A program made the translations under genes and the position numbers. Below, in pieces: positions 14,917-33,276 of a stretch of 40,390 bases of DNA (positions are counted from its first letter, which is position 1; each line of letters starts with the position of its first letter). The notes below the pieces were generated by a model that worked only from the letters and a program-made list of their open reading frames with translations, was not told the DNA's origin and made no database searches. Origin of the DNA: Candidatus Nanopelagicales bacterium. Lineage in GTDB: Bacteria > Actinomycetota > Actinomycetes > S36-B12. The stretch is taken from the NCBI GenBank assembly GCA_028688835.1, contig JAQTXL010000008.1, positions 1-40,390 on the forward strand. The letters run 5' to 3'.

Positions 14917-15572
14917 GCGGAGTTCACCAGCTTCACGCCCTGCGTGACGACACTGGCCGGCGCTGCGGGATCCCCGACGCTGACCTCGATGGACTCCAGG
15001 ACCTCGGGCGCAGTGATCGCGAGTGCTCCGGGGGTCACCGGCGGCGTCACTGCGTGCCGCGTGGCAGTGCAGCTCGTCGTGGGGTCGCAGGCGTAGTACG
15101 CGATCCCCAGGGGTGTGCCGCTCGTGGTGCGGATCTCGAACATGGTGCGACGCGTGGCCGATGCCGACCACGTCCAGCCCGATGCGGTCTTCGTGGGCGC
15201 CCAGATGTCCGAGTACACGTAGCGTCGGCCATCGGCGCGTGATCCGATGCCGATCGTGAACTTGTAGGGAGCGTCGTTCTTGGCACCGGTGCCTGAGTAC
15301 GAGTACGCCGTCAGCGTGCTGGCCGATGCCGACACGACCGGGCTGGCGACGCCCTCTGGCGTGTCGATGTAGCGCGCAAGGCGCGTGATCCAGATCATCG
15401 CGTCCTGGGAGTCCTGCTGCGCCTGCGATCGCGTCGTGGTCTCGCGCACGGCGTTGAAGCCCGCCAGGGTGGCCGTGCCGACGATCACCATGAGGGCGCC
15501 GAAGACGCCGATGGCGACCACGAGCTCGATCAGTCCGAAGCCTTCGTCGGACGCGCGCGGGTCGCGGCTCAT
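14913..15572 (-). CDS. Minor prepilin, PilW-like
   Basis: MSRDPRASDEG/FGLIELVVAIGVFGALMVIVGTATL: class III prepilin signal. Confidence 0.82.
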   Translation of the reverse strand: MSRDPRASDEGFGLIELVVAIGVFGALMVIVGTATLAGFNAVRETTTRSQAQQDSQDAMIWITRLARYIDTPEGVASPVVSASASTLTAYSYSGTGAKNDAPYKFTIGIGSRADGRRYVYSDIWAPTKTASGWTWSASATRRTMFEIRTTSGTPLGIAYYACDPTTSCTATRHAVTPPVTPGALAITAPEVLESIEVSVGDPAAPASVVTQGVKLVNSA

Positions 15573-16918
15573 GGCGTCACCGACGCGGTGGGCGCGGGAG
15601 ACGGGCTGGTCGACGTCGTCGGCGAGGCGGTGGGCGAGGCGGTGGGGGAGGCCGTCGGCGCATCGAGGTCGGCCAGGGTGAAGCTGACGACGGTCGGGGT
15701 CTCGGTCACGCCGGCGGCCGGGGGGACCAGCGGCGTCGCGGTCTGCACCGTCTGCCCGCCTGCGGTGAACGACCAGTCGCCGTTGGGCATCCCGACACGC
15801 AGGATGCCCAGGCTGCTCGTGACGCCGAGGTCGACGCTCGCGGTCGTGCAGCCGGCGCCGGCGTCCAGGTGGCGGGCGAGCACGTGCACCCCGGCGGGGA
15901 GCCCGCGCAGCTTGACCGGCCGCACGTCGAGCCGGGCATCCGTGACGCCTCCTGCGATGAGCGCGAAGGACTGGGGGAGCGCGGCATAGGCCTGCGGATC
16001 GGCGTCGGCGCAGTCGCCCGCCCAGGCATTGAAGCCCGAGGTCTCCGGCCAGAGCCCGGTCACCTGGGTGCCGACGAGCGCCGTCTGGGAGGTGCTGCCG
16101 GTCTGGTTGAGCGCCCACGTCACCGGGATGCCGCTGGCAAGGGGGTAGTCACTGAGGTCCCCGTCGAAGGCGATGCGGGCCTCCGGTGCGTACAGGAACG
16201 TCGGACGCGCGAGGGTGTCCGCGGTGATAGCCACGGTGCGGCTCGTGCCCGTGGGGGTCGGGGCGACGTAGTGCGGTGTCCCGGGATCGCCCAGCGACAC
16301 GACGAGCGATCCCGTCGGCAGCAGCTGCGGCACGTACAGGCAGCCGTCGGCGCCGGTCGTGTACGCGAAGGAGTTCGACGGGTGCGCGGAGTCCAGCCCG
16401 GTCACCACGATCCCGGCCACGGGTGCGCCCAGCTGGTCGGTGATCGCGATGGCTGCTGCGCCGGTGCCCGAGGTCGACGGCGCGGCGTCGGGCTCGATGA
16501 CGGTGTCCGTGGTGCTGGGCGAGCTCAGCCTGGGTCCGGTGACCTCGACGTGCACGCGCATGTACGACTGGCCCGGCTGCGCGCTCGCGCAGGCGCTCGT
16601 CGTCTGGCCCAGGCCCACCCAGCTCGCGGTGGTGGCGATGGTGAAGTCGGCGTTGGCTCCCGTGGGGCTGGTCGTGGTGAGCCCGGGGGTGATGCCGGTC
16701 GTTCCCACGAGCCGCAGGTGCTCCAGCCACGACTGCGCGATGTTGGCGGCGATCACGCGCTGCGAGTTCTCGTGGGTCGTGGTGAGGGACTGCACGAGGA
16801 TCGAGAACACGACGGTGGCCAGGCCGGCGAACACGACCAGTGCGGCCATGACCTCGACCAGGGTGAACCCGCCGTCGCCCTCGGGGCGCGGGTCTGGGCG
16901 ACGGCGCACATCAGCCAT
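15569..16918 (-). CDS. Minor prepilin, PilV-like, with Cna/CarboxypepD_reg-like insert and SPTA-rich tail
   Basis: MADVRRRPDPRPEGDGG/FTLVEVMAALVVFAGLATVVFSILVQ; internal ITDQLGAPVAGIVVTGLD...TGADGCLYVPQLLPTGSLVVSL; C-terminal DAPTASPTASPTASPTTSTSPSPAPTASVTP. Confidence 0.82.
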   Translation of the reverse strand: MADVRRRPDPRPEGDGGFTLVEVMAALVVFAGLATVVFSILVQSLTTTHENSQRVIAANIAQSWLEHLRLVGTTGITPGLTTTSPTGANADFTIATTASWVGLGQTTSACASAQPGQSYMRVHVEVTGPRLSSPSTTDTVIEPDAAPSTSGTGAAAIAITDQLGAPVAGIVVTGLDSAHPSNSFAYTTGADGCLYVPQLLPTGSLVVSLGDPGTPHYVAPTPTGTSRTVAITADTLARPTFLYAPEARIAFDGDLSDYPLASGIPVTWALNQTGSTSQTALVGTQVTGLWPETSGFNAWAGDCADADPQAYAALPQSFALIAGGVTDARLDVRPVKLRGLPAGVHVLARHLDAGAGCTTASVDLGVTSSLGILRVGMPNGDWSFTAGGQTVQTATPLVPPAAGVTETPTVVSFTLADLDAPTASPTASPTASPTTSTSPSPAPTASVTP

Positions 16919-16968: not shown

Positions 16969-16997
16969 GTTTCGGACCGATTCGGCGGGCCGGGCAC
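16969..16997 (-). promoter_or_regulatory. Candidate T4P promoter element GTGCCC-N16-CCGAAAC upstream of pilV-W-X-GGDEF/EAL operon
   Basis: Minus strand GTGCCC GGCCCGCCGAATCGGT CCGAAAC; ends 50 nt before the pilV-like ATG; same spacing as at 20595 and 26014. Confidence 0.65.
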
Positions 16998-18556: not shown

Positions 18557-19389
18557 GATGAGCCTCCCGGTGCTGTCGTGGGCGCAGGTGTCGGCGTCGC
18601 CGGTGCCAGCAGCGTGCGCACCTGCTGGTCGGTCAGCTTGGTCGCCAGGCCGGCAGGCGTGATGCCGACCGTCCCGGTGAACGACACGGAGGCGGGAGCG
18701 CCGCCGGCTCCCTGGGCCGCGAGCATCGAGGAGTTCACGTACGGCCCGACGAACAGCGGATCGCGTGAGAGCGCCACGAGCAGGCGCGAGACCTGGTCGC
18801 GGGCGCCGGCGGTCGCGCTGAAGGTGATGCAGCCGATCGCGACCTGCTCGGCGAACGGATCGGGGTTGGGGCAGGCCGTGACACTGCCGCCGGCGGCCGG
18901 GGCCCCGAGGTAGGTGGCCGACAGCGTCGAGAAGCGCATGGTGGGTGCACCCGTGGAGCGCGCCGCCAACAGCAGGTGGCCGTACAGCGTCGACGCCCGC
19001 GGCTGGGTGGTGAGCGTCGAGGTCACGAGCTGCTCCTGGCCCTTGATCTGCGCCACCATCTGGGCGATCGGCGACAGGGCCTGCACCTGCAGCTGCTCCT
19101 TGGCATTGATGGCCTGGGCGGTGGCCAGTGACTGCTCGGAGGACTGGATGGCGGGCTCCTGCACGAACCACAGCATCCCGGCGATCACCAGCAGGAGCAC
19201 CGCCGCGAGTGCGGCGATGCGGCGGATCCTGGCGATGGCCATGGACTCGCGGACCTGCTGCGGCAGGAGATCGACCTGGGGCAGGGTCGGGACGAACTCC
19301 TCGCGCTCGACATCGTCGTCGATGCCGGGCTGGTCACGACGTGACAGCCGCAGCCCGAAGACGGTGCGCGCATCGGTCGCGGTGCTCAT
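18553..19389 (-). CDS. pilN: PilN-like (fimbrial assembly) protein
   Basis: QVDLLPQQVRESMAIARIRRIAALAAVLLLVIAGMLWFV: PilN NLLP-like motif followed by TM helix; directly after pilM. Confidence 0.78.
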   Translation of the reverse strand: MSTATDARTVFGLRLSRRDQPGIDDDVEREEFVPTLPQVDLLPQQVRESMAIARIRRIAALAAVLLLVIAGMLWFVQEPAIQSSEQSLATAQAINAKEQLQVQALSPIAQMVAQIKGQEQLVTSTLTTQPRASTLYGHLLLAARSTGAPTMRFSTLSATYLGAPAAGGSVTACPNPDPFAEQVAIGCITFSATAGARDQVSRLLVALSRDPLFVGPYVNSSMLAAQGAGGAPASVSFTGTVGITPAGLATKLTDQQVRTLLAPATPTPAPTTAPGGSS

Positions 19390-20525
19390 GGTCGCCTCGC
19401 CATGGCCAGGCCGATCGCCATCGCCAGTGGGGCCTCCACTGCCCGCTGGGCCCGGCTGTGCGCCTCCAGGCCCAGGAACGCGGGGCTGACGGTCACCGGA
19501 TAGCCAAGCTCGGTCGCCATCCGCTCCCGCAGGCCGGTGAGCGCGATCGCACCGCCGACCACGGTGATGGTCGTGATGCGCGCATCGCTGCTCGCGGACA
19601 TGTAATAGTCGAGCGAGTTGCGGATCTCGGCGACGATGCCGGTGGCCCACATGTTGAGCTCGCCCAGAGCGGTTGCCGTGCTCGGCGCCAGCCCGATCGT
19701 CACGGTGCCCGCGACGGCCTGGAAGACGCTCGACTCGGCGACGGGCACCAGGGCCGGAGCCGGGCCGTTGAGGCCGGTCTCGCGCTTGAGCAGCTCGGCC
19801 GCCTCGCGATCGAGGTCGAGGGCATCGGCGATGGCGCTGGTGGCCTGCAGCCCGCCGAGCGGGTTGAGGGTGCGGATGAACCGCGGCTGGCCGCCGGCGT
19901 GCACCGTGACCGTGACCTGCTCAGCACCGATGTCCACGATCGCTCGGGGCTCCTGATCGGTCGGCAGCACGCCCCCGCAGGCGGCTCGGATGTGCGCGAA
20001 GGGCGCGATGTCGGCGACCACGGGCACCAGGCCGGCACTGCGAACGACCCCCGCCAGCTCCAGGGCCTGCGACCGCTCGGTGGCCACGACCAGGATGCGG
20101 TTCTCGTCGACGAGGTGGCCCTTGGCGTCGAGCCGCGTGATCTCGTCGAGCAGGTGGTAGTCGAGCTGCGCCGCGGCCATGTCGATGGGCAGGGACTCCT
20201 GCACCTGGTAGCGCAGGGCCGAGGCGAAGTCCGCCGGCGCCATCCACGGCAGCTCGAGCTGGCGCGTGAGCAGGTTGGCGTCGGTGATGGCGAAGGCCAC
20301 ATGACGCGAACTGAAGCGCCCGGCCTTCCACAGCTGCCTGAGGGCGCGGGCCACGACCTTGGCGTCGATGACTCGCCCGCCCCGCATGGCGCCGTGCGGC
20401 AAGGGGACCGCCGCAGCGCGGTGCACCGTGGTCTGGCCGGTGCGACCGTCGGTGCGCAGCTCGACGGCGCGCACGCCGGTCGTGCCGATGTCCAGCCCGA
20501 CGAGGGTGCCGCGGGACCTGCCCAT
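19386..20525 (-). CDS. pilM: Type IV pilus assembly actin-like ATPase PilM
   Basis: VGLDIGTTGVRAVEL; ALRYQVQESLPIDMAAAQLDYHLL; AIVDIGAEQVTVTV; ITVVGGAIALTGL. Confidence 0.92.
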   Translation of the reverse strand: MGRSRGTLVGLDIGTTGVRAVELRTDGRTGQTTVHRAAAVPLPHGAMRGGRVIDAKVVARALRQLWKAGRFSSRHVAFAITDANLLTRQLELPWMAPADFASALRYQVQESLPIDMAAAQLDYHLLDEITRLDAKGHLVDENRILVVATERSQALELAGVVRSAGLVPVVADIAPFAHIRAACGGVLPTDQEPRAIVDIGAEQVTVTVHAGGQPRFIRTLNPLGGLQATSAIADALDLDREAAELLKRETGLNGPAPALVPVAESSVFQAVAGTVTIGLAPSTATALGELNMWATGIVAEIRNSLDYYMSASSDARITTITVVGGAIALTGLRERMATELGYPVTVSPAFLGLEAHSRAQRAVEAPLAMAIGLAMARRP

Positions 20526-20569: not shown

Positions 20570-20576
20570 GTATCGG
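20570..20576 (-). promoter_or_regulatory. Weak candidate -10-like CCGATAC upstream of pilM operon
   Basis: Minus strand GGGCCGATACCC, 44 nt before pilM ATG; one mismatch to CCGAAAC, but the GTGCCC half-site is not at N16. Confidence 0.3.
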
Positions 20577-20594
20577 CCCGATCGCGCGCGAGCG

Positions 20595-20623
20595 GTGCCC
20601 GTTCGGCCCGGATGAGCCGAAAC
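20595..20623 (+). promoter_or_regulatory. Candidate T4P promoter element GTGCCC-N16-CCGAAAC upstream of pilT-pilB-pilT-pilC operon
   Basis: GTGCCC GTTCGGCCCGGATGAG CCGAAAC, 7 nt before ATG 20631. Confidence 0.65.
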
Positions 20624-20630
20624 CACCGGT

Positions 20631-21800
20631 ATGGCCCTGCCCGCAGCCCCGATGACCGTGGCGTCGCATGACGCCCTGGGGCAGTCCGGGTCCGACTGCC
20701 CGGTGCTCGCGCCGGCCGAGGCGACGCTGCTGCGTCAGGTGCTCGAGGCTGCCGTCGCGCATGGAGCCTCGGACGTCCACGTGCGCGCTGGTGCGCCGCC
20801 GCTGCTGCGCGTCGAGGGTCGCCTCCTCCCGCTCGACCTCCCGCCGCTCACCGCCGACGACGCCACGGCGCTGGTCCTCGAGGCGATGACGCAGGAGGAG
20901 GACCGTGCCGAGTATGCGCGCGACCACGAGCGCGACTTCGCGGTGACCGAGCCGTTCGTGGGCAGGTTCCGGGTCAACGCCTACCGGATGCGCGGGTCCG
21001 ACGCGATGGTGCTGCGGCACGTGCGGGAGAGCGTGCCGAGCCTGGAGGCGCTGGGCGTCCCGGCGATCGCACGATCCCTCGCCCTGACGCCGAGCGGCAT
21101 CGTGCTCGTGTGCGGCCCGACCGGCTCGGGCAAGTCGACGACCCTTGCGGCCATGATCGATGCGATCAACGACGAGCGGTACTGCCACATCCTCACGATC
21201 GAGGACCCGATCGAGTTCCTGCACGCGAACAGGCGGGCGACGATCAGCCAGCGCGAGCTGCACACCGACACCCTCGAGTTCGCCAGGGCCCTGCGCGCCG
21301 GCCTGCGTCAGGACCCGGACGTCATGGTCATCGGCGAGATCCGCGATCGCGAGACGCTGCGCACGGCACTGCAGGCGGCACAGACCGGGCACCTCGTGCT
21401 GGCGAGCATGCATGCCAGCTCGGTGATCGAGGTCGTGCACCGGATCGTCGACATGTTCCCCGCGGACGAGCACCGCCAGATCCGGGCGACGCTGGCCGAG
21501 TCCCTGCGCGGGATCATCTGCCAGCACCTGGTGGCCGGTGCCCGTGCTGACGGTCGCGTGCTCACCTGCGAGATCGCGGTCTCGACCGCGCGCATCCGCG
21601 ATGCGATCACCGACGCGGAGCGGACCGACCAGCTCCACGAGATCCTGGCCGAGGGCGAGCACTACGGCATGCGCACGAGTGAGCAGGACCTCGTGCGGCT
21701 GGTGCTCGCAGGAGACATCACGCTCAGCGAGGCGCAGACCGTGACCACGCGCCAGTCCGACCTCCTGGTCGCGCTGCGCAGGGCCGGCTTCCGTGGCTAG
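20631..21800 (+). CDS. pilT: PilT/PilU-type T4P retraction ATPase (paralog 1)
   Basis: Walker A CGPTGSGKSTTLAAMIDAIN, TIEDPIEFLH, GEIRDRETLRTALQAAQTGHLVLASMHASS. Confidence 0.92.
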   Translation: MALPAAPMTVASHDALGQSGSDCPVLAPAEATLLRQVLEAAVAHGASDVHVRAGAPPLLRVEGRLLPLDLPPLTADDATALVLEAMTQEEDRAEYARDHERDFAVTEPFVGRFRVNAYRMRGSDAMVLRHVRESVPSLEALGVPAIARSLALTPSGIVLVCGPTGSGKSTTLAAMIDAINDERYCHILTIEDPIEFLHANRRATISQRELHTDTLEFARALRAGLRQDPDVMVIGEIRDRETLRTALQAAQTGHLVLASMHASSVIEVVHRIVDMFPADEHRQIRATLAESLRGIICQHLVAGARADGRVLTCEIAVSTARIRDAITDAERTDQLHEILAEGEHYGMRTSEQDLVRLVLAGDITLSEAQTVTTRQSDLLVALRRAGFRG

Positions 21801-23472
21801 CGCTCCCGGCGCGATCGCCGACCTCCTGGTGACGAACGGGCTCATCAGCGCCCAGCAGCAAGCCCAGGCCCAGGCGCAGGCCGCGCTCACCCAGGAGCCA
21901 GTGCTCAACATCCTGGTGCAGCAGGGCAGCGTCACCCGCAAGGACGTGGTGCGCGCGACCGTGCAGGCTGCCGGCCTGGAGTTCGTGGACATCCTCGCGC
22001 TGACGGTGGACCCGGCTGCAGCGGCGATGATCACCGGCGACCAGGCGCGCAAGTACCAGGTCATCCCCGTCGCCCTCGATCACGACGTGCTCGTCGTCGT
22101 CGGCGACTCGCAGACTGCGGCCAACTGGCAGGTGAGCGAGGACCTGGAGGCCATCACGCGGCATCCGGTGCGCTTCGCCTGCGCGATGCGGTCCGAGATC
22201 GCGATCCGCATCAACCAGCTCTACCGGGCCGAGTCCGAGCTGGGCGAGCTCGTGCGCGGCATGCTCGACGAGGAGCAGGTGATCGACATCCAGGCGCCGG
22301 TCGTGGCGACCACCGACGCCCCGCTGGTGCGCTACGTCAACCTGCTGCTCAAGCAGGCCATCTCCGACAAGGCGTCGGACATCCATGTCGAGCCCAGCGA
22401 GGACCACATCAGGATCCGCTTCCGCATCGACGGGGTGCTCAAGGAGCAGGCGCCCGCGCCCAAGGAGATGCAGTCGGCGCTCATCAGCCGCCTGAAGATC
22501 ATGGCGGACATGGACATCGCCGAGCGCAGGGTGCCGCAGGACGGCCGGCTCTCACTGATCTGGAGCGGGCAGAAGATCGACCTGCGCGTGAGCTGCCTGC
22601 CGACCGTGTGGGGCGAGAAGATCGTCATGCGCATCCTGGACAACTCATCGGCGCAGATGACCCTCGCGCACCTGGGCTTCTCGCCGGAGAACCTCGACCA
22701 TTGGCGCAACGCCTATGAGCGGCCCAATGGGATGCTCATCGTGAGCGGGCCCACGGGCTCGGGCAAGTCGACCACGCTGTACGCGACGCTCAACACCGTC
22801 GCTCGCCCCGAGATCAACATCGTCACTGTGGAGGACCCGGTCGAGTACCGCATCCCCGGCATCAACCAGGTGCAGACCCACGCCAAGGCCGGACTCACGT
22901 TCGCCTCGGCGCTGCGCTCGATCCTGCGTGCGGATCCCGATGTGATCCTCATCGGTGAGATCCGCGACTACGAGACCGCACAGATCGCCGTGGAGTCCGC
23001 GCTCACGGGCCACCTCGTGCTCACGACCCTGCACACGAACAACGCGCCGAGCGTCATCACTCGGCTCATCGAGATGGGCATCGAGCCGTTCCTGGTGAGC
23101 TCAGCCCTGGCCTGCACGACGAGCCAGCGGCTGGCCCGCCGACTGTGCCTGTCGTGCCGGCGCCCGGTGGGCAAGTCGGCGGCCGAGCTCGCTGCGGTCG
23201 GCTTCGAGTACCCCGCGGGGGTGCAGCCGACCTTCTTCGAGCCGGTCGGCTGCTCCAGCTGCGCGCACACCGGGTACCAGGGGCGCATGGGCCTGCACGA
23301 GGTCATGCCCATGAGCGAGGAGATCGGGCGGCTGGCGTTCAGTCGCGCATCCTCGGACGAGGTGCGACGCGTCGCGATCGATGCCGGCATGCGGACGCTG
23401 CGGCAGGACGGCTGGCTCAAGGTCTCGCAGGGCCTGACCACCATCAGCGAGGTGCTTCGGGTGATCGCGTGA
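21793..23472 (+). CDS. pilB: T4P assembly ATPase PilB/GspE
   Basis: N-terminal GspE_N-like domain; SGPTGSGKSTTLYATLN, VEDPVEYRIPGINQVQ, Cys4 zinc site CLSC...CSSC; GTG start overlapping pilT stop. Confidence 0.95.
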   Translation: MASAPGAIADLLVTNGLISAQQQAQAQAQAALTQEPVLNILVQQGSVTRKDVVRATVQAAGLEFVDILALTVDPAAAAMITGDQARKYQVIPVALDHDVLVVVGDSQTAANWQVSEDLEAITRHPVRFACAMRSEIAIRINQLYRAESELGELVRGMLDEEQVIDIQAPVVATTDAPLVRYVNLLLKQAISDKASDIHVEPSEDHIRIRFRIDGVLKEQAPAPKEMQSALISRLKIMADMDIAERRVPQDGRLSLIWSGQKIDLRVSCLPTVWGEKIVMRILDNSSAQMTLAHLGFSPENLDHWRNAYERPNGMLIVSGPTGSGKSTTLYATLNTVARPEINIVTVEDPVEYRIPGINQVQTHAKAGLTFASALRSILRADPDVILIGEIRDYETAQIAVESALTGHLVLTTLHTNNAPSVITRLIEMGIEPFLVSSALACTTSQRLARRLCLSCRRPVGKSAAELAAVGFEYPAGVQPTFFEPVGCSSCAHTGYQGRMGLHEVMPMSEEIGRLAFSRASSDEVRRVAIDAGMRTLRQDGWLKVSQGLTTISEVLRVIA

Positions 23473-23500
23473 CGACCGGACGACGAGTGGAGTGCAGCTG

Positions 23501-24805
23501 ATGGACGACGACGGCTTCGTGCTGCCCCGCATGCCCGGGCTCCCGACCGCGAACGGTGCGATCGGGGTGGTCGACGTGCACGCGCCGTCGGGCCCGCACC
23601 TGCTGCCCGGGCTGCTCCCGGTCGAGGCGATCACGTCGCGCATCGACGCTCCGCAGGCGCCGCCGCCGGTCGCTGATGTGGGCATCCGGATCCTCGAGCC
23701 TGACGCGTCGGCCTCGCAGGGCATCGGCATCCAGCTCGACGACATCCTGCTCGTGCTGCTGGAGCGTGGGGCCTCGGATCTGCACCTGAGCGTCAACGCC
23801 CCGCCCATGATCCGCGTCAACGGCGATCTCGAGGCGCTGCCCGGGCATGCGCCCCTGACGCCCAAGGACATCCGCGAGGCCATGTACGCGATCCTCAGTG
23901 ATCGCCAGAAGCAGGCGTTCGAGGAGACCAAGGAGCTCGACCTCGCCTACGAGCTGCCCGGTGCGGCGAGGTTCCGCGTCAACCTGCTGCAGCAGCAGGG
24001 CTCCATCGGCGCAGTGCTGCGCTCGATCCCGTGGGAGATCCGCAGCCTCGAGGAGCTGAGCATGCCGCCATCGCTCGCGGCACTCACCGCGCTTCCGCGC
24101 GGGCTCGTGCTCGTGACCGGGCCGACCGGCTCGGGCAAGTCGACGACGCTTGCAGCCCTGGTGGATCGCGTGAACCGCACACGCAAGGGGCACATCATCA
24201 CGATCGAGGACCCGATCGAGTTCGTGCACCCGCACAAGGGATGCGTGGTCAACCAGCGCGAGGTCGGCACGGACACGCGGTCCTTCGCCGCGGCGCTGCG
24301 GCACGCACTGCGGCAGGATCCCGACGTCATGCTCGTCGGCGAGATGCGCGACCTGGAGACCATCGCGATCGCACTGACCGCAGCAGAGACCGGGCACCTC
24401 GTGTTCGCGACCCTGCACACGAGCTCGGCGGCCAGCACGATCGACCGCATCATCGATGTGTTCCCGGCCGAGCAGCAGGCGCAGATCCGCACGCAGCTGG
24501 CGTCATCGCTGGAGGCTGTCGTCTGCCAGACCCTGTGCCGCACCAGTGACGGCAGCGGGCGCATCGCTGCGACCGAGGTGCTCATCGCCACACCGGCGAT
24601 CCGCAACCTGGTGCGCGAGGGCAAGCTGCAGTCGATCCCATCGGCCCTCCAGACCGGTTCGCGCCACGGCATGCACACGCTCAATCAGCGCCTCGCCGAG
24701 CTCGTCGCCAGCGGCCGGGTCGCCTACGACGAGGCGCGTGAGCACTGCTCGGACCCGGACGAGCTCGCGCAGCTGCTGGGACGGAGCGCTGATGACGCAG
24801 ACTGA
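23501..24805 (+). CDS. pilT: PilT T4P retraction ATPase (paralog 2, canonical sequence)
   Basis: [97 protein letters not shown]. Confidence 0.95.
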   Translation: MDDDGFVLPRMPGLPTANGAIGVVDVHAPSGPHLLPGLLPVEAITSRIDAPQAPPPVADVGIRILEPDASASQGIGIQLDDILLVLLERGASDLHLSVNAPPMIRVNGDLEALPGHAPLTPKDIREAMYAILSDRQKQAFEETKELDLAYELPGAARFRVNLLQQQGSIGAVLRSIPWEIRSLEELSMPPSLAALTALPRGLVLVTGPTGSGKSTTLAALVDRVNRTRKGHIITIEDPIEFVHPHKGCVVNQREVGTDTRSFAAALRHALRQDPDVMLVGEMRDLETIAIALTAAETGHLVFATLHTSSAASTIDRIIDVFPAEQQAQIRTQLASSLEAVVCQTLCRTSDGSGRIAATEVLIATPAIRNLVREGKLQSIPSALQTGSRHGMHTLNQRLAELVASGRVAYDEAREHCSDPDELAQLLGRSADDAD

Positions 24806-26012
24806 GTACTTCATCCGGGCACGCTCGCGCAAGGGACGCCTGATCGAGCAGCACATCAAGGGCTCGAGCGAGGCGGAGGCGGTCGCGCGCGTGCGCCAGC
24901 TCGGGCTCACGCCCATCTCCGTGGAGATCCAGAACACGGGATGGAACAAGGAGATCCACCTGGTCAAGCCGCGGGTCAAGCCCAAGGACCTGGCGATCAT
25001 GACGCGCCAGTTCGCGACGATGCTCAGTGCCGGCCTGCCGATCCTGCGCTGCCTGGCGATCCTGGGCGACCAGACCGAGAGCGTGCGCCTGGGGGAGCTG
25101 ATCGCACAGGTGCGCGACGATGTCGAGCGCGGCTCGGCCCTGTCGGAGTCACTCGTGCTCTACCCGGAGTTCCCGCCGCTGATGGTGAACATGATCCGTG
25201 CGGGAGAGGTCGGTGGCTTCCTCGACGAGACGATGCTGCAGATCGCCGAGTCCATCGAGGCCGATGTGCGGCTCCGGGGCAAGATCAAGGCCGCCCTCAC
25301 CTACCCGATCGCCGTCGGCGTGATCGCGATCGTCGTGACGACGGCGATGCTGATCTTCGTCGTCCCGGTGTTCTCGGAGATGTTCGCCTCGCTCGGCGGG
25401 CAGCTGCCGACGCCGACGCAGATCCTGGTCAGCATCTCGGATGTCGTGCGCAATCCGCTCTTCCTGGTGCCCGCCATCGTGCTCACTGCCGCCGCGATCA
25501 TCTGGTACCGACGCATGCGCAATGCGCCCGCGGTGCGAGCCTTCGTGGACCCGATGAAGTTCAGGCTGCCGGTGTTCGGCCAGCTCTTCCACAAGATCGC
25601 CATCGCACGCTTCACGCGCAACTTCTCGGCGCTGCTGCGCGCAGGCGTGCCGATCCTGACCGCCCTCGACATCGTCGGCGGGACCTCGGGGAACGTCGTC
25701 ATCGTGCGCGCCGTGACTGCTGTGCAGGAGAGCGTGCGCCAGGGCTCGGGCATGGCCCGACCGCTGAGCGAGCATCCGGTGTTCCCCGACATGGTGGTGC
25801 AGATGATCGCGGTCGGCGAGGACACGGGCGCCCTCGACGAGATGCTCGCGAAGATCGCCGACTTCTACGACGCCGAGGTCGAGGCGACCACCGAGCAGCT
25901 CATGGCGCTCATCGAGCCGATCATGATCATGCTGCTCGGCGGTCTGGTCGGCGGCATGATCGTCGCGATGTACCTGCCGATCTTCAACATCTTCGAACTC
26001 GTCAAGCAGTGA
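24792..26012 (+). CDS. pilC: T4P platform protein PilC
   Basis: LAIMTRQFATMLSAGLPILRCLAIL ... FTRNFSALLRAGVPILTALDIV ... two T2SSF domains. Confidence 0.95.
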   Translation: MTQTEYFIRARSRKGRLIEQHIKGSSEAEAVARVRQLGLTPISVEIQNTGWNKEIHLVKPRVKPKDLAIMTRQFATMLSAGLPILRCLAILGDQTESVRLGELIAQVRDDVERGSALSESLVLYPEFPPLMVNMIRAGEVGGFLDETMLQIAESIEADVRLRGKIKAALTYPIAVGVIAIVVTTAMLIFVVPVFSEMFASLGGQLPTPTQILVSISDVVRNPLFLVPAIVLTAAAIIWYRRMRNAPAVRAFVDPMKFRLPVFGQLFHKIAIARFTRNFSALLRAGVPILTALDIVGGTSGNVVIVRAVTAVQESVRQGSGMARPLSEHPVFPDMVVQMIAVGEDTGALDEMLAKIADFYDAEVEATTEQLMALIEPIMIMLLGGLVGGMIVAMYLPIFNIFELVKQ

Positions 26013-26013
26013 C

Positions 26014-26042
26014 GTGCACTTCGCCCAGGATCGGTCCGAAAC
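26014..26042 (+). promoter_or_regulatory. Candidate T4P promoter element GTGCAC-N16-CCGAAAC upstream of pilA
   Basis: GTGCAC TTCGCCCAGGATCGGT CCGAAAC immediately after the pilC stop; shares a 13-mer ATCGGTCCGAAAC with the pilV promoter element. Confidence 0.65.
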
Positions 26043-26051
26043 CCCTGATGT

Positions 26052-26088
26052 CGACCCACCCTGGGTCGGTACCCCGACGACACGGGGT
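26052..26088 (+). promoter_or_regulatory. Two adjacent perfect hairpins in predicted pilA 5'UTR
   Basis: cgaccca-ccc-tgggtcg (26052-26068) and accccg-acgaca-cggggt (26071-26088). Confidence 0.6.
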
Positions 26089-26109
26089 CGTTCGATCAGG
26101 AGTCAAGAC

Positions 26110-26565
26110 ATGCTCACTCGCCTGACACGGATGCGAGACGAACGCGATTCAGGTTTCACCCTGATCGAGCTGCTCGTCGTCGTCATCATCATCGGCATCC
26201 TCGCCGCCATCGCCATCCCGATCTTCCTCAACCAGCGCAACTCCGCACGCACGGCCTCGGTCGAGTCAGATGTGCGCAACGTGGCCACGCTGATGGAGAC
26301 CGCCTACACGCAGGCCGGCAGCTACCCGGCCAGCGGCACCGACCTGGTGACCGTCGACAACGCCAAGATCTCGGCTGGCAATGCGATCGTCGTCACGGTG
26401 GCTGCCACCGGTGCCTCGTTCACCATCACGGGCTGCAACTCCGAGGCCACGACCTCGAGCCTGACCTACTACGACTCCGCCGGCGGCGGGCTCATCAACC
26501 CAGTGCCGGCAACCGTCACGACCTGCCCGACCTTCGGCGCCTCGCCGACGGCGACGGTCGCGTAG
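26110..26565 (+). CDS. pilA: Major type IV pilin PilA
   Basis: MLTRLTRMRDERDSG/FTLIELLVVVIIIGILAAIAIPIFLNQRNSA; two Cys in the C-terminal half (GCNSE...VTTCP); SD caggag. Confidence 0.95.
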   Translation: MLTRLTRMRDERDSGFTLIELLVVVIIIGILAAIAIPIFLNQRNSARTASVESDVRNVATLMETAYTQAGSYPASGTDLVTVDNAKISAGNAIVVTVAATGASFTITGCNSEATTSSLTYYDSAGGGLINPVPATVTTCPTFGASPTATVA

Positions 26566-26622: not shown

Positions 26623-26729
26623 GGACATTTCCGGCACATTGCGGCCGGGGCGAAGAATTCACGCCGACGACACAGGAATCAGTTGTGTGAGTGGACATGT
26701 CCTGTCATGCTCGGGCCGTGACCAGTCAA

Positions 26730-27188
26730 ATGACCGGACAAAGCACACCCGTGGCCCTTCCCCTGGCGGCCCTGGGTGATGAGTTCGCGGGCATCGAGCG
26801 GTCCCTGGAGATCGGACTGCGACTGGCGCCGGTGCTGCGGGTGGCGCATGACGCCGCCACTGCACTGGCCGCCCTCCTCGCCGAGAGCCCAGCGATCCCC
26901 GTGCGGCTGGCCGGACTGGACTTCACGCAGACCCGCATGCACCTGACGATCACGATCGACCTGGGATCCCTCGACGACATCAAGGTTGCCGCCGAGCGGT
27001 CATGCGCGGCGGTGGCCCTCATCGCGTCCATCGTCGACAGGCTCGCTGCCCACGAGCCGTGCCTGGTGGAGATCCCGCACCCCGACTCCTCCGAGGCGAT
27101 GCGTGCCCGCGGGATCCTCGTGCGCGACCTGCCGGTGCGGACCTGCGCGGCTGCCGAGGCGCCTGCACTGGCGGTGCGCTCATCATGA
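26730..27188 (+). CDS. Hypothetical protein of T4P accessory module
   Basis: MTGQSTPVALPLAALGDEFAGIERSLEIGLRLAPVLRVAHDAATALAAL...; ATGA-coupled to the sigma-like gene; start uncertain (ORF from 26691). Confidence 0.6.
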   Translation: MTGQSTPVALPLAALGDEFAGIERSLEIGLRLAPVLRVAHDAATALAALLAESPAIPVRLAGLDFTQTRMHLTITIDLGSLDDIKVAAERSCAAVALIASIVDRLAAHEPCLVEIPHPDSSEAMRARGILVRDLPVRTCAAAEAPALAVRSS

Positions 27189-28306
27189 CCGGTGCCGAGC
27201 TCGTGCCCGATGCGGAAGTGATCATGACGGCCAACCAGCGGCTGGGCCGCAAGGTTCCCGATCTCATGGTGCGCGGGCTGCACGAGCGCGAGATCCTCGA
27301 CCTCGCGCCGGCGATGACCTGCGATCGCGTGCACTGGGAGACCGTCGAGCCGATCGACATGGCCGCGCTCGTCGCTGCGCTTGGACACGAGGCGCGCACC
27401 CGGCAGTGGAGTGATGGCCAGTCGCGCGTCTGGGTGCCTGAGGGTCGCGGGCACGAGTACCGCGATCGCATCCGCGCCTGGTCGGCCGAGCACGGGGTCG
27501 AGATGGTCAATGCCCGCGTGGAGTCCGGTGTTCCCTTCCGCGACCTCGACTCTGTACCCGATGGGCTTCTGGCCGAGCTGCTGGGCGCCTGCACCGCATG
27601 GCTCTACAGCCGGTCGTACGCCATCCGCCGCAAGCTGGTGACCGAGGTGGAGGGCATCGATGACGACGATGTCTACTCGCTCATGTACCTGTTCGTGCAC
27701 GACCACGCCGACCGGTTCGACACCGGGCGATCGGGTCGCAACGGAACCCTGAACCTGACGGCGTTCATGTACGGCAAGCTGCGCACCTGGCCGCAGGACG
27801 CGGCGCGGTCCGCATACGGGCGCACTGTGGTGAGCGACCGGATCGCGCTGCACCGTGCGCATGAGCAGTCCATGGCCACGACAGGCGGCGCCCCGACCGA
27901 GGCCACCAGGGCCGCAGCCCTCGGTGTGACCGTCACTGAGCTGCGTCGCCGCGAGGACGCGATCGCGACACTGTCGGGGATGCGCAACTACGACGAGCTC
28001 GAGCTCGCCGAGGACCATGGCGGACGTGACGCAGCGATGCACGGTGGCTCCGCTGCGCCCGAGGTCGCTGCTGAGACCTATGCGCGCAGTGCTGCCGTGA
28101 CGCGCGCGCTCGTGTCGGCGGTCGTCGACGTGCGCAAGGGTGCGCGTCGCCGGCATGACCCGCTGGCCCTGAGCGCCGCCTACCTGGCGTTCTGGGAGGG
28201 CCTGGGCCGCGCGCAGATCGCGCGCGAGCTCGATGTGCTGCCGCGCACTGCGGCCGCGGCCCTCAGCCGCGTGCTCGCCGTGCTCGATCCGGCAGAGCTC
28301 ACCTGA
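27185..28306 (+). CDS. Divergent sigma-70-family-like protein (FliA/WhiG-like layout)
   Basis: DDDDVYSLMYLFVHDHADRFDTGRSGRNGTLNLTAFMYGKLRTWPQDAARS (region 2-like), HRAHEQSMATTGGAPTEATRAAALGVTVTELRRRED (region 3-like), LALSAAYLAFWEGLGRAQIARELDVLPRTAAAALSRVLAVL (region 4 HTH-like). Confidence 0.6.
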   Translation: MTGAELVPDAEVIMTANQRLGRKVPDLMVRGLHEREILDLAPAMTCDRVHWETVEPIDMAALVAALGHEARTRQWSDGQSRVWVPEGRGHEYRDRIRAWSAEHGVEMVNARVESGVPFRDLDSVPDGLLAELLGACTAWLYSRSYAIRRKLVTEVEGIDDDDVYSLMYLFVHDHADRFDTGRSGRNGTLNLTAFMYGKLRTWPQDAARSAYGRTVVSDRIALHRAHEQSMATTGGAPTEATRAAALGVTVTELRRREDAIATLSGMRNYDELELAEDHGGRDAAMHGGSAAPEVAAETYARSAAVTRALVSAVVDVRKGARRRHDPLALSAAYLAFWEGLGRAQIARELDVLPRTAAAALSRVLAVLDPAELT

Positions 28307-29020: not shown

Positions 29021-29050
29021 CTGGTCCGATACCTCCTGTGAGGAGGGATC

Positions 29051-30115
29051 ATGCGCATTCGGATCGGCCGGCGACGGCCCACCAGCGACGCCGCGCTTGC
29101 GGTGCCGGTCGCCGTCGCGCTCGAGCGCCTGCGCGACACGCAGGCATCCGGGTGCCTGACGGTGAGCCATGGCCCCTCCGGCAGCAATGCCCGCGTGTTC
29201 GTCCTGGCCGGCGCGGTCTACGCCGTGGCCCTCGAGCACTACGACTTCCCGATCGCCCTGCGACTGTGCTCCAGTGCCCTGCTCGATGAGGATGCCTGCG
29301 CAGCGATCGCCATGACGATCCCCAGGGAGCACCCGGACTTCGGTCGTGTCGCGGTGTCGACCGGCCGCCTCGACGTCGCCGATCTCGGGCGCCTGCACCA
29401 GGAGCTGGTGCTGGCCGCCGCCGGCGCCGTGCTCGCGGTCGACTTCGCGGTGACGTACTTCGAGCCCGACATCGTCACCGGGGACTTCTGCACCATGCCC
29501 ATCGGTGTGGACGCGCTCGTCGAGATGGTCAGCCTGCGCCGCGAGCGCCAGGCCGCCGGCTGGCAGGTGGTGACCGCAGACGCCGATCCCTCGGACTGCA
29601 TCGTGGCCGCCACGGGCCGGGCACTGCCCGATGACGCCTGCGCGCCCGAGCTCACCGCGATGCTGGGGGCGCTGGACGGCGTCCGCACCGTCGATCAGGC
29701 CGCAGCCGCCTGCGGGTTCACCCGGGCCGAGGCCGTGCACCTGGCCTGCGCACTCGTCGCCGGAGGGCACGCGTCCGTCAGTGAAGGCGTGGGCGAGCCG
29801 AGCCGCGGGCTCGACGTCCCCGAGGCCTTCGGGCGTCCGGTGACGGTCGATGAGCCTGCCCACGCGCCGGCACTGGAGCTGGGGGAGCCCGATGCTCCCG
29901 ACGAGCCCACAGCGCAGTGTGCCGTGGTCGACCTCGATGCGCAGGCGCTGACAGCGCTGGTCATCGACGGCACGGTCGTGCTGCATCCGGCGGTCGACAT
30001 CGACGGCGAGATCGAGCTGCTGCGTCGCGAGCTGGCCGATGCGGAGGAGCAGGCCTCGGTGATCCGTGCTCGGCTGCAGCAGGCGCTGGAGAGGCATGAC
30101 GTCCATGTCCACTGA
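29051..30115 (+). CDS. Probable DUF4388 (PATAN)-domain protein with C-terminal coiled coil
   Basis: LERLRDTQASGCLTVSHGPSGSNARVFVLAGAVYAVAL... resembles PATAN/DUF4388 opening; C-terminal IDGEIELLRRELADAEEQASVIRARLQQALERH coiled coil; SD gaggagg. Confidence 0.5.
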   Translation: MRIRIGRRRPTSDAALAVPVAVALERLRDTQASGCLTVSHGPSGSNARVFVLAGAVYAVALEHYDFPIALRLCSSALLDEDACAAIAMTIPREHPDFGRVAVSTGRLDVADLGRLHQELVLAAAGAVLAVDFAVTYFEPDIVTGDFCTMPIGVDALVEMVSLRRERQAAGWQVVTADADPSDCIVAATGRALPDDACAPELTAMLGALDGVRTVDQAAAACGFTRAEAVHLACALVAGGHASVSEGVGEPSRGLDVPEAFGRPVTVDEPAHAPALELGEPDAPDEPTAQCAVVDLDAQALTALVIDGTVVLHPAVDIDGEIELLRRELADAEEQASVIRARLQQALERHDVHVH

Positions 30116-30920
30116 ACCGCGCGTGCTGATCCTGGTCGTGCTGGCCCTCGGGCTGATGGGACTGCTCGTCGGCTCGTTCCTCAATGTCGTCATCGCGCGC
30201 GTCCCGCTCGGTCAGTCGGTGCTCGCACCGGCGTCGGCCTGCCCGGCCTGCGGCTCGGCCATCCGCTGGCGCGACAACGTGCCCGTGGCCTCCTGGCTGA
30301 TCCTTCGTGGTCGATGCCGCGACTGCAGCGCGCCGATCAGCGCCCGCTACCCGATCGTCGAGCTCGGCACGAGCGTGCTGTGGATGGTGCTCGCCGCCTG
30401 GGCGCTGACGACCTCCGACGCATCCGGGCTGCTGCCGCTGCTGCTCGTCCTCGCGAGCGCCGGACTCGCCCTCGCCGTCATCGATGGCCACTATCATCGG
30501 CTCCCTGATGCGCTCGTCCTGCCGCTGATCGGCGTCACCGTGGTCGGGCTGCTCGTCAGCCAGGCAGTGTCCGGCACCGGGCACTGGATCGGCGCCCTCG
30601 CGGGAGCCGCGATCTGGCTCGCGGTCATCGGAGGGCTCTGGCTCGTGACGGGGGGACGTGGCATGGGACTGGGTGACGTGAAGCTCGCGCCGGTGCTCGG
30701 TGCCACCCTGGGCTGGATCAGCGTGGGCTCGGCGGTCATCGGGCTGCTCGCGGCCTTCGTGCTCGGTGCGTGCGTCGGGCTCGCCCTCATCGCCGGTCAT
30801 CGGGTGGAGCGACGCACACGCATCGCGTTCGGGCCCTTCCTGCTCGCCGGTGCGCTCGTCTGCGTCCTGGCCGGAGTGCCGCTGTGGACCATGTACACGC
30901 GCGTGAGCGGGATCAGCTGA
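30096..30920 (+). CDS. pilD: Prepilin leader peptidase/N-methyltransferase
   Basis: GSFLNVVIARVP, CPACGSAIRWRDNVPVASWLILRGRCRDCSAPISARYPIVE, AVIDGHYHRLPD and GLGDVKL catalytic Asp motifs. Start may be 30105. Confidence 0.94.
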   Translation: MTSMSTEPRVLILVVLALGLMGLLVGSFLNVVIARVPLGQSVLAPASACPACGSAIRWRDNVPVASWLILRGRCRDCSAPISARYPIVELGTSVLWMVLAAWALTTSDASGLLPLLLVLASAGLALAVIDGHYHRLPDALVLPLIGVTVVGLLVSQAVSGTGHWIGALAGAAIWLAVIGGLWLVTGGRGMGLGDVKLAPVLGATLGWISVGSAVIGLLAAFVLGACVGLALIAGHRVERRTRIAFGPFLLAGALVCVLAGVPLWTMYTRVSGIS

Positions 30921-31386: not shown

Positions 31387-31735
31387 GCGCCCCTACGACC
31401 GTCCGTCGATCTTCAGCCGGGTCGACCAGGCCGGGATGATCGATCGCCTCGAGCACTCGCCGCTCGATGACGACGAGGTCGGCTACCTCTCCGACCTCGA
31501 CGACGCCGGGCATCGCCAGGTCGCACCGTCGCTCATGGACGGCATCCGCATCTTCTCGGGGGAGCCCGTGCAGCACCGCGACGAGTTCGCAGCAGTGAGC
31601 GCGGTGCCCTCGGCCGATGCCCCCGGTCCTGACAAAGCGCCAGCCGCCCAGGACTTCATCCTGTTCGGGCCGGCCGGCCGCACGCCCGGTGCCGCGGACC
31701 TGCCCACCTCCCTGCCGAACGGGGGCGCATCATGA
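31379..31735 (+). CDS. Small hypothetical protein of T4P accessory module
   Basis: MAERPYDRPSIFSRVDQAGMIDRLEHSPLDDDEVGYLSDLDD...; overlaps both neighbours (ATGA coupling to the ATPase gene). Confidence 0.6.
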   Translation: MAERPYDRPSIFSRVDQAGMIDRLEHSPLDDDEVGYLSDLDDAGHRQVAPSLMDGIRIFSGEPVQHRDEFAAVSAVPSADAPGPDKAPAAQDFILFGPAGRTPGAADLPTSLPNGGAS

Positions 31736-33276
31736 GCGACACCGCACAGGTCTCGGGCCCCGGCGTCATCGTCGTCGGCGATCGCGCGGTCCACACACTG
31801 CTCGTCGCCTCGGGCGCTCCCTGGTGGGTCGAGCCGGCCCAGGCGACGGTCGCGCAGATGTGGGCCGGGCTCTCGTCGGGCACGCTCAGCGCGCGTGCCC
31901 GGATCCTGGTGTTCTCCGACAGCGCTGCCGTCGACGCCGGCCTGCGCGCCGCCGAGGTCGAGCAGACGGCCGCCGCGATCGTGACCATGGTGCAGGCGGG
32001 CGCTCGCGTGTTCATCGCCTCGAGCCAGGCTGGGGCGCAGGCGGCACTCCTGGCGCAGGTCGCTGCCGTCGGCCGCGCGCAGGGCATCGATCCGGTGGCC
32101 CTCGACGTGCCGGTGCTCGAGCTCTCCCTGGGCGGGCGGGCCGTGCTCGATGCGATCGCCGAGCACACGCGCGACCTCGTGCGCTTCCCGGCCGAGCTGC
32201 CACCGGGCATCGACGTCATCCTGGGCCCGATGGCCGCTGCGCCCGCACCCGTCGATTCGCCGCCGCGGATCCGGCTGCTGCCCGACCTGCCGCCGGTCGG
32301 CTCGCCTGGCGCGCCTGCTGCCGTTCCCGCTGCAGTCGACGAGCTGCCGCCGTCGGCCTCACGCGAGCTCCTCGACCGACCCCGTCGCCCCGGGCAGGCG
32401 ACCATCACCGTGACGTCGAGCAAGGGCGGCTCGGGCAAGTCGACCGCCTCGATCATGCTGGCGGCCTCGATCGCCCGCGCGAGCGCGCGTGCGGGGCGCC
32501 CGCTGTCGGTCTGCGTCGTCGACCTGGACACCCGCGACGGCCAGGTCGCCTCGCTCATCGGCCGCTTCATGCCGACCGCGCTCAACATCAGGGTGCAGCC
32601 GGTCTGGGACGAGGAGCGCATCCGGCGCAGCCTCGTGCGCGCCGACAACCTCGGCATCGACTGCCTGCTCGCGCCGATCCGGCCGCGCACGGCCGACACC
32701 GTCGGCCCCGACTTCTACCGTGCGATCGTGCGCAGCCTGCAGCGCATGTTCGACGTGATCGTGATGGACACGAGCGTGCAGTACCTCGAGCCGCTCATCT
32801 CCAAGGTCGCGCTGGTCGAGGCCGATGAGATCCTGTTCGTCACCAATCTCGCCTCGACAGCGGTGCAGGGCATGGCGCGCGCCCTGCGCGAGATCACGGC
32901 GCCGATCGACGAGTCCGGGCTCGGCATCCCTCGCGAGAAGCTCGGCATCATCGTCAACCAGTCGGCCACGAACGTCGGCATGGAGCACGAGCAGGTGCTG
33001 GCCGCTGGCCTGGGCATGCCCGTGGTCGGGGTCATCCCTCTGGCGACGCGCGACGTGCTCACGGCCACCAACCTCAACCGCATGCACGAGCTGCTCGATC
33101 ACCCGCTGATCGGGCCGGCCTACCACGAGCTCGCGGTGAGCTGCCTGCCCGACGCCCTGCTCGCGCCCTGGGAGCCGGCCCCCGAGGCCGTGGCCGACCC
33201 TGAGCCCAGCGCACCAGCCGGGGCCCGGACCTTCGACCCCGAGACCGAGCGCCGCCGCATGTCGTTCCGGCGCTGA
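31732..33276 (+). CDS. CpaE/TadZ-like MinD/ParA-family ATPase with N-terminal receiver-like region
   Basis: Deviant Walker A TSSKGGSGKST, VCVVDLDTRDGQVASLIG, FDVIVMDTS, LFVTNLASTAVQGMARAL. Confidence 0.8.
   Translation: MSDTAQVSGPGVIVVGDRAVHTLLVASGAPWWVEPAQATVAQMWAGLSSGTLSARARILVFSDSAAVDAGLRAAEVEQTAAAIVTMVQAGARVFIASSQAGAQAALLAQVAAVGRAQGIDPVALDVPVLELSLGGRAVLDAIAEHTRDLVRFPAELPPGIDVILGPMAAAPAPVDSPPRIRLLPDLPPVGSPGAPAAVPAAVDELPPSASRELLDRPRRPGQATITVTSSKGGSGKSTASIMLAASIARASARAGRPLSVCVVDLDTRDGQVASLIGRFMPTALNIRVQPVWDEERIRRSLVRADNLGIDCLLAPIRPRTADTVGPDFYRAIVRSLQRMFDVIVMDTSVQYLEPLISKVALVEADEILFVTNLASTAVQGMARALREITAPIDESGLGIPREKLGIIVNQSATNVGMEHEQVLAAGLGMPVVGVIPLATRDVLTATNLNRMHELLDHPLIGPAYHELAVSCLPDALLAPWEPAPEAVADPEPSAPAGARTFDPETERRRMSFRR

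Follow-up and report, generated by a model that had tools for sequence, protein, structure and literature searches.

Genes of the pilus locus

The window analysed here is a stretch of 40,390 nucleotides (positions 1 to 40,390 of contig JAQTXL010000008.1, assembly GCA_028688835.1) from a Candidatus Nanopelagicales bacterium, an uncultured freshwater-type actinobacterium. The genes for PilB, PilT, PilC, PilA, PilD and PilM all lie within one cluster, identifying it as a type IV pilus locus. Its minus strand carries prepilin-like genes, including one for a minor prepilin with an N-methylation motif read in its sequence (15569..16918), together with pilO, pilN and pilM (pilM at 19386..20525). The order on the plus strand is pilT1, pilB, pilT2, pilC (20631..26012 for these four), pilA, which encodes the major pilin (26107..26565, PF07963), P0002, SIG, P0003, P0004 (29051..30115) and the prepilin peptidase gene pilD (30066..30920). 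Further small genes and a ParA/MinD-like ATPase gene follow pilD, and the locus ends at valS.

Several other features of the locus deserve mention. The two genes for PilT-type retraction ATPases (20631-21800 and 23492-24805) flank pilB in a single operon, an arrangement found in all relatives with enough sequence. The ParA/MinD-like ATPase (31732-33276), whose N-terminal part is long, is encoded in the pilus locus of every relative and is possibly a pilus positioning factor. A 905-residue protein encoded beside the prepilin genes (9990-12707, minus strand) matched no Pfam family at E<=0.1, and parts of it read like degenerate GGDEF/EAL domains. The otherwise unnamed protein P0004 begins with a conserved pattern, FTGxLxV...YxFEGxxYAVELDGY, for which Pfam gave only a weak DUF7393 match; we take this opening segment to be DUF4388-like.

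The gene that is the main subject of this work, here called SIG, occupies positions 27185..28306 of the plus strand and encodes 373 amino acids between an ATG start and a TGA stop. An earlier note on this DNA had placed a divergent sigma-70-like protein at this position inside the pilus module, and the peptides quoted there are all present in the open reading frame. SIG is a real, conserved gene: its coordinates were exact, and the gene was present in 20 of 99 related genomes (19 orthologs, all from one family of Ca. Nanopelagicales-type MAGs), with identities of 64-66% inside the genus and 45-59% across the family. Its position in the pilus locus is constant in all orthologs, and the flanking gene order is identical wherever the locus is long enough for comparison. 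Within the family, SIG and PilC were both present in 18 genomes and both absent from 38, with 3 discordant cases (Fisher p=5e-12). In two of these, SIG sits at the end of a contig or on a short one; the third is a genome of 61% completeness.

Upstream, the small conserved protein P0002 is encoded at 26691..27188 on the plus strand (its start may be 26730), and its end overlaps the SIG start codon by 4 bp as ATGA. Downstream, P0003 (28310..29020, plus strand) starts 3 nt after SIG. Because of this overlap and the short gap, P0002-SIG-P0003 probably form one operon, and P0002 is a candidate partner or regulator of SIG. P0003 is a conserved protein (50-61% identity in relatives) for which no family was matched in Pfam or NCBIfam. 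Its C-terminus is invariant and contains Cys and His residues (GCTGRPGF..GTVDHAGAPRCPLHE); the protein is possibly metal-binding.

Sigma resemblance of SIG

Taken as a single sequence, SIG matched Pfam Sigma70_r4_2 with E=0.011 and NCBIfam FliA_WhiG with E=0.13, which is near noise, and had no match in the PDB. Across the family, the resemblance rises well beyond chance: among the 20 orthologs, Sigma70_r4_2 was found in 15 (best 7.9e-6), Sigma70_r3 in 11 (best 3.5e-8) and FliA_WhiG in 16 (best 4.5e-7). None of the curated sigma family cut-offs of Pfam and NCBIfam was reached by SIG; in the case of FliA_WhiG (TIGR02479, cut-off 189.6 bits) it scored 12 bits, and the best family member had an E-value of 4.5e-7. 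When the family profile was compared with all PDB chains, the first six places were taken by sigma factors, aligned in a co-linear register. Streptomyces WhiG (0.0018), SigF (0.011) and FliA (0.017) came first; the six places include both E. coli and Aquifex FliA, and SigA. The profile also aligned, at E=5e-6, with the canonical FliA of a different actinobacterial family.

The AlphaFold model of SIG (mean pLDDT 80) has helices where sigma regions 2, 3 and 4 are expected, with a disordered linker at residues 267-293. A Foldseek search with this model returned FliA, WhiG and SigB chains with probability 1.00 and E-values from 1e-4; the TM-scores were low, as the domains are positioned differently relative to one another. 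At the level of both profile and fold, the three regions stand in the correct order, with the equivalent of region 2 at 27566..27817 (residues ~128-211), of region 3 at 27821..27982 (residues ~213-266) and of region 4, which includes the HTH, at 28064..28294 (residues ~294-370), all on the plus strand. The similarity to sigma factors is strongest in regions 3-4. The most conserved part of SIG is region 2, in or near which D162, D173, D176, R177, D179, W202-P203, D205, R208 and G212-R213 are invariant.

The regions are preceded by an N-terminal extension of roughly residues 1-120, modelled with a pLDDT above 90 over most of residues 30-140. In the AlphaFold model, it forms an alpha/beta domain with a ferredoxin-like sandwich fold (27218..27541, plus strand, residues 12-119). 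A search of the PDB with this domain gave no significant match (best E=0.03), and the domain has no recognised relative. A relationship to P0003 or P0002 was considered as well and dropped, as no similarity was found.

These results agree well with the earlier note, which had read regions 2, 3 and 4 in FliA/WhiG-like order behind an extra N-terminal segment of ~110 residues and had proposed structure prediction as a check for a sigma fold. Ortholog profiles, the PDB profile search and Foldseek concur on the order, the extra segment is a confidently modelled domain of its own, and the predicted structure matches FliA, WhiG and SigB chains. Judged by profiles and the structural model, SIG is very probably a highly diverged FliA/WhiG-type sigma factor with an added N-terminal domain.

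Putative promoter elements of the pilus units

The -10 consensus of flagellar-class sigma factors is quoted as GCCGATAA (PMC8325347). A variant close to this FliA/WhiG-type -10, KCCGAWAC, lies upstream of the pilus units in the window. It was found as CGGTCCGAAAC at 16969..16979 on the minus strand, upstream of the minor prepilin operon (ATG at 16918), as CGGGCCGATAC at 20570..20580 on the minus strand, upstream of pilM, as TGAGCCGAAAC at 20613..20623 on the plus strand, 7 nt before the ATG of pilT1 and with a leaderless mRNA predicted, again as CGGTCCGAAAC at 26032..26042 on the plus strand, upstream of pilA, and as TGGTCCGATAC at 29022..29032 on the plus strand, upstream of P0004-pilD. P0004 has a predicted SIG-type promoter of its own. 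In the relatives, the upstream regions of the pilus units have [A/T]TYGRKCCGAWAC in common.

The extended 11-mer YGRKCCGAWAC, built partly from the very pilus sites that are counted, has exactly five copies in the 2.34-Mb genome (a draft of 96.7% completeness), all within 12 kb of the locus, with a pilus unit starting shortly downstream of every copy. The shared promoter-like element invoked in the earlier note is thus present in the window in five copies, every one in front of pilus genes. This exclusivity is clean only in the genome of the window; in the relatives, the total genome count of the 11-mer did not exceed that of the reversed control. The shorter GNCCGATAC was rejected as a genome marker, since it occurred 25 times versus 28 in the reversed control and only the extended form was specific.

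Among the relatives, the core element was found upstream of pilA in 16/16 cases, of pilM in 12/12 and of the gene o30949 in 15/17, and less regularly upstream of P0004 (8/18) and pilT1 (7/14). It was found in none of 97 cases before genes internal to operons (SIG, P0003, pilD, parA, pilC and pilB), and reversed, complemented and permuted control patterns gave almost no matches. All six strict matches upstream of pilT1 are separated from the ATG by exactly 7 nt, with differing intervening bases, a distance characteristic of the -10 in leaderless transcripts. In the SIG-less pilus loci of related, sister families, which differ in gene order, the core element was absent from pilA (0/11), though it was upstream of pilB in 3/13 and of pilT2 in 2/15 cases. 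No SIG-like open reading frame was found in these loci; a weak tblastn match in one sister-family pilus locus (L086) was discarded as a SIG homolog, as the profile gave it no support.

One might ask whether the element is an RNA leader or a regulator-binding site rather than a promoter, in which case the sigma resemblance would be incidental. The pilA leader past the element (26043-26107) does contain short conserved stretches, TGTC...ACCCC...GGGGT, which are able to form short hairpins. Nevertheless, the 7 nt between the element and the pilT1 ATG leave no room for a leader, no Rfam match was obtained, a result that also led us to reject a riboswitch at pilA, and the consensus fold was weak. 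We regard this explanation as very improbable and treat the element as a putative -10.

Flagellar homologs, proposed pilus control and known systems

A search of 396 genomes of the class with the SIG profile matched only one genome outside the family of SIG, and a search of 398 genomes of the phylum gave no further match. The distant actinobacterial family to which this one genome belongs has a SIG homolog in 106/115 genomes. Region 4 is degenerate in these homologs, which share the N-terminal domain (hhalign E=1e-33) and lay within a flagellar cluster in all 16 loci examined (L114:8677-10376 and L135-L149). The order there is flgN-flgK-flgL-csrA-P0002-like-SIG-like, with csrA not detected in one locus, and fliC and a canonical fliA are nearby. 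Homology of the P0002-like protein with P0002 (E=1.4e-12) shows that the P0002-SIG pair travels together.

In 10 of the 16 loci, the SIG homolog is directly followed by GGGTCCAT or a close variant, ~14 nt, GCCGATAY, exactly 7 nt and a GTG. This GTG starts a reading frame of about 19-47 codons, possibly that of a leaderless leader peptide preceding the following gene. The resulting promoter, GGGTYCAT-N14-GCCGATAY (L114:10487-10526 and equivalents in nine loci of L135-L149), is conserved; the full GGGTCCAT-N14-GCCGATAY pattern occurs about once per sampled genome, adjoining the SIG homolog. Upstream of fliC and flgN, these clusters have different elements (CTTGA or CTCAA with GCCGAWG).

The -35 word GGGTYCAT derived from this promoter was then available for comparison with the pilus sites. 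Across the 58 pilus sites, it scored 4.84 of 8 matches versus 3.95 +/- 0.13 in shuffled sequences, a value reached by 0 of 2000 shuffles, and the match peaks at one spacing. The flagellar -35 TAAA was not present at the pilus promoters, which have the G-rich GGGTYCAT-like word at fixed spacing instead; an unguided EM search for a -35 at the pilus sites gave a weak result. We consider the -35 fit the strongest independent sign that SIG is linked with a GGGTYCAT/KCCGAWAC promoter class.

A further question is which sigma factor reads the pilus promoters. A search of the window's genome restricted to matches of the FliA_WhiG model (TIGR02479) returned only an RpoD-type and a SigB/F-type sigma (the latter on contig C44), labels that reflect our reading of the sequences. 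By this search, SIG is the only FliA/WhiG-like candidate in the genome. If a SigB/F-type, RpoD or ECF sigma read the promoters instead, SIG would have another role in the locus, and the existence of the SigB/F-type sigma, together with the G-rich -35 that is possible for SigB-type factors, would fit such an arrangement. However, the SigB-type -10 is GGGTAT-like (PMC2758279) and not KCCGAWAC, every SIG-bearing locus has the element at pilA whereas pilA of SIG-less loci lacks it, and the same -35/-10 promoter adjoins the SIG homolog of the distant family. Transcription by another sigma hence appears improbable.

Slightly less improbable, though still unlikely, is a role of SIG as a sigma-derived DNA-binding regulator that does not bind core polymerase and activates or represses at KCCGAWAC, while another sigma transcribes. 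Its weak sigma similarity, concentrated in regions 3-4, would suit such a protein, as would the flagellar homologs, whose degenerate region 4 and coexistence with a canonical FliA mean that the SIG family could include non-sigma members. A sigma factor is nevertheless the better match for the conservation of region 2 above all other parts, for an element in the -10 position at 7 nt from a leaderless ATG, and for a -35 kept at a fixed distance.

We therefore favour SIG as a pathway-specific sigma factor of FliA/WhiG ancestry, and put the probability of this explanation as a whole, including the pilus promoters and their control, at roughly 0.8. From the computed homology, synteny, motif distribution and co-occurrence, we infer polymerase binding, promoter recognition and a regulatory role of the N-terminal domain and P0002. 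SIG would bind core RNA polymerase via its region-2-like domain, and its regions 4 and 2 would recognise GGGTYCAT-(~14 nt)-KCCGAWAC promoters. Its predicted targets are the minor prepilins, pilM with pilN and pilO, the operon pilT1-pilB-pilT2-pilC (as leaderless mRNA), pilA, and P0004-pilD. The P0002-SIG-P0003 operon lacks the element and is for this reason probably made from a housekeeping promoter; a consensus scan upstream of P0002 found none, a scan that is uninformative at this G+C. Control of SIG, through sensing of a signal or by keeping it inactive, probably lies with its N-terminal domain or with the co-inherited P0002, and once released from that control SIG would join core polymerase and the five pilus units would be transcribed. 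In this genome, SIG very probably switches on only the surrounding pilus genes.

If this is correct, SIG is an alternative sigma factor with a predicted regulon that, in this genome, does not reach beyond its own pilus locus, and thus a compact unit for studying the joint evolution of sigma specificity and appendage regulation. For uncultured aquatic actinobacteria, it would also supply a specific promoter sequence with which pilus control can be tested. That this module also stands among flagellar genes in another family suggests a transfer of appendage regulators between machines that are unrelated. We see about even odds that P0002 and SIG make up a two-gene transcription module not recognised before, used in the flagellum and the type IV pilus of two families, with a separate sigma class, a fused sensor or lock domain, GGGTYCAT-N14-KCCGAWAY promoters and a co-inherited partner.

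The idea of a self-contained pilus sigma factor and regulon, put forward in the earlier note as apparently undescribed, gains strong support from the matching promoters restricted to the locus; the claim that it is undescribed does not stand, since WhiG and SigF precedents exist. In Rubrobacter, promoter search and TSS mapping reportedly place type IV pili under the control of WhiG, with 3 of 12 TSS-mapped WhiG-type promoters in the pilus cluster (PMC8325347), and that paper cites FliA-family control of Actinoplanes pili. SigF directly drives pilA1 in Synechocystis (PMC2758279), a sigma cascade operates in Nostoc hormogonia (PMC6495340), and Actinoplanes has a sigma factor that carries a fused regulatory domain (PMC10733313).

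The closest parallel is the WhiG-RsiG-(c-di-GMP) system of Rubrobacter radiotolerans, likewise an actinobacterial FliA/WhiG-class sigma with GCCGATAA-type -10 elements upstream of pilus operons. Rubrobacter WhiG is canonical, uses a -35 TAAA, has DGC/PDE genes beyond the pilus cluster among its targets and is paired with the anti-sigma RsiG (PMC8325347), whereas SIG is strongly divergent, carries an added N-terminal domain, has a G-rich -35, and lies inside the pilus locus. The RsiG motif E(X)3S(X)2R(X)3Q(X)3D had no exact match when all six reading frames of the window were scanned; a relaxed match to the RsiG c-di-GMP motif, the only one, lies in P0004 and was set aside as it is not conserved in relatives. 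SIG resembles FliA (sigma-28) in the region order 2-3-4, in similarity from region 2.4 to 3 and in a -10 like GCCGATAA, but differs in scoring below curated cut-offs, in its GGGTYCAT-like -35 and in its N-terminal domain. The cyanobacterial pilus and hormogonium factors SigF and SigJ are also alternative sigmas activating pilA; unlike SIG, they are SigB-related, with a TAGGC...GGTAA promoter and a broader regulon (PMC2758279, PMC6495340). Sigma-SsdA of Actinoplanes missouriensis is likewise a sigma factor with an additional domain, in its case an anti-sigma-antagonist (PMC10733313), a difference from the N-terminal domain of SIG. In the open-licence literature, we did not find the divergent branch, its -35, the in-locus location, the partner gene or the flagellar counterpart. 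Pilus-controlling sigma factors are already known as a general idea; what seems new here is this divergent branch of sigma factors, together with the class of promoter and the partner gene that go with it.
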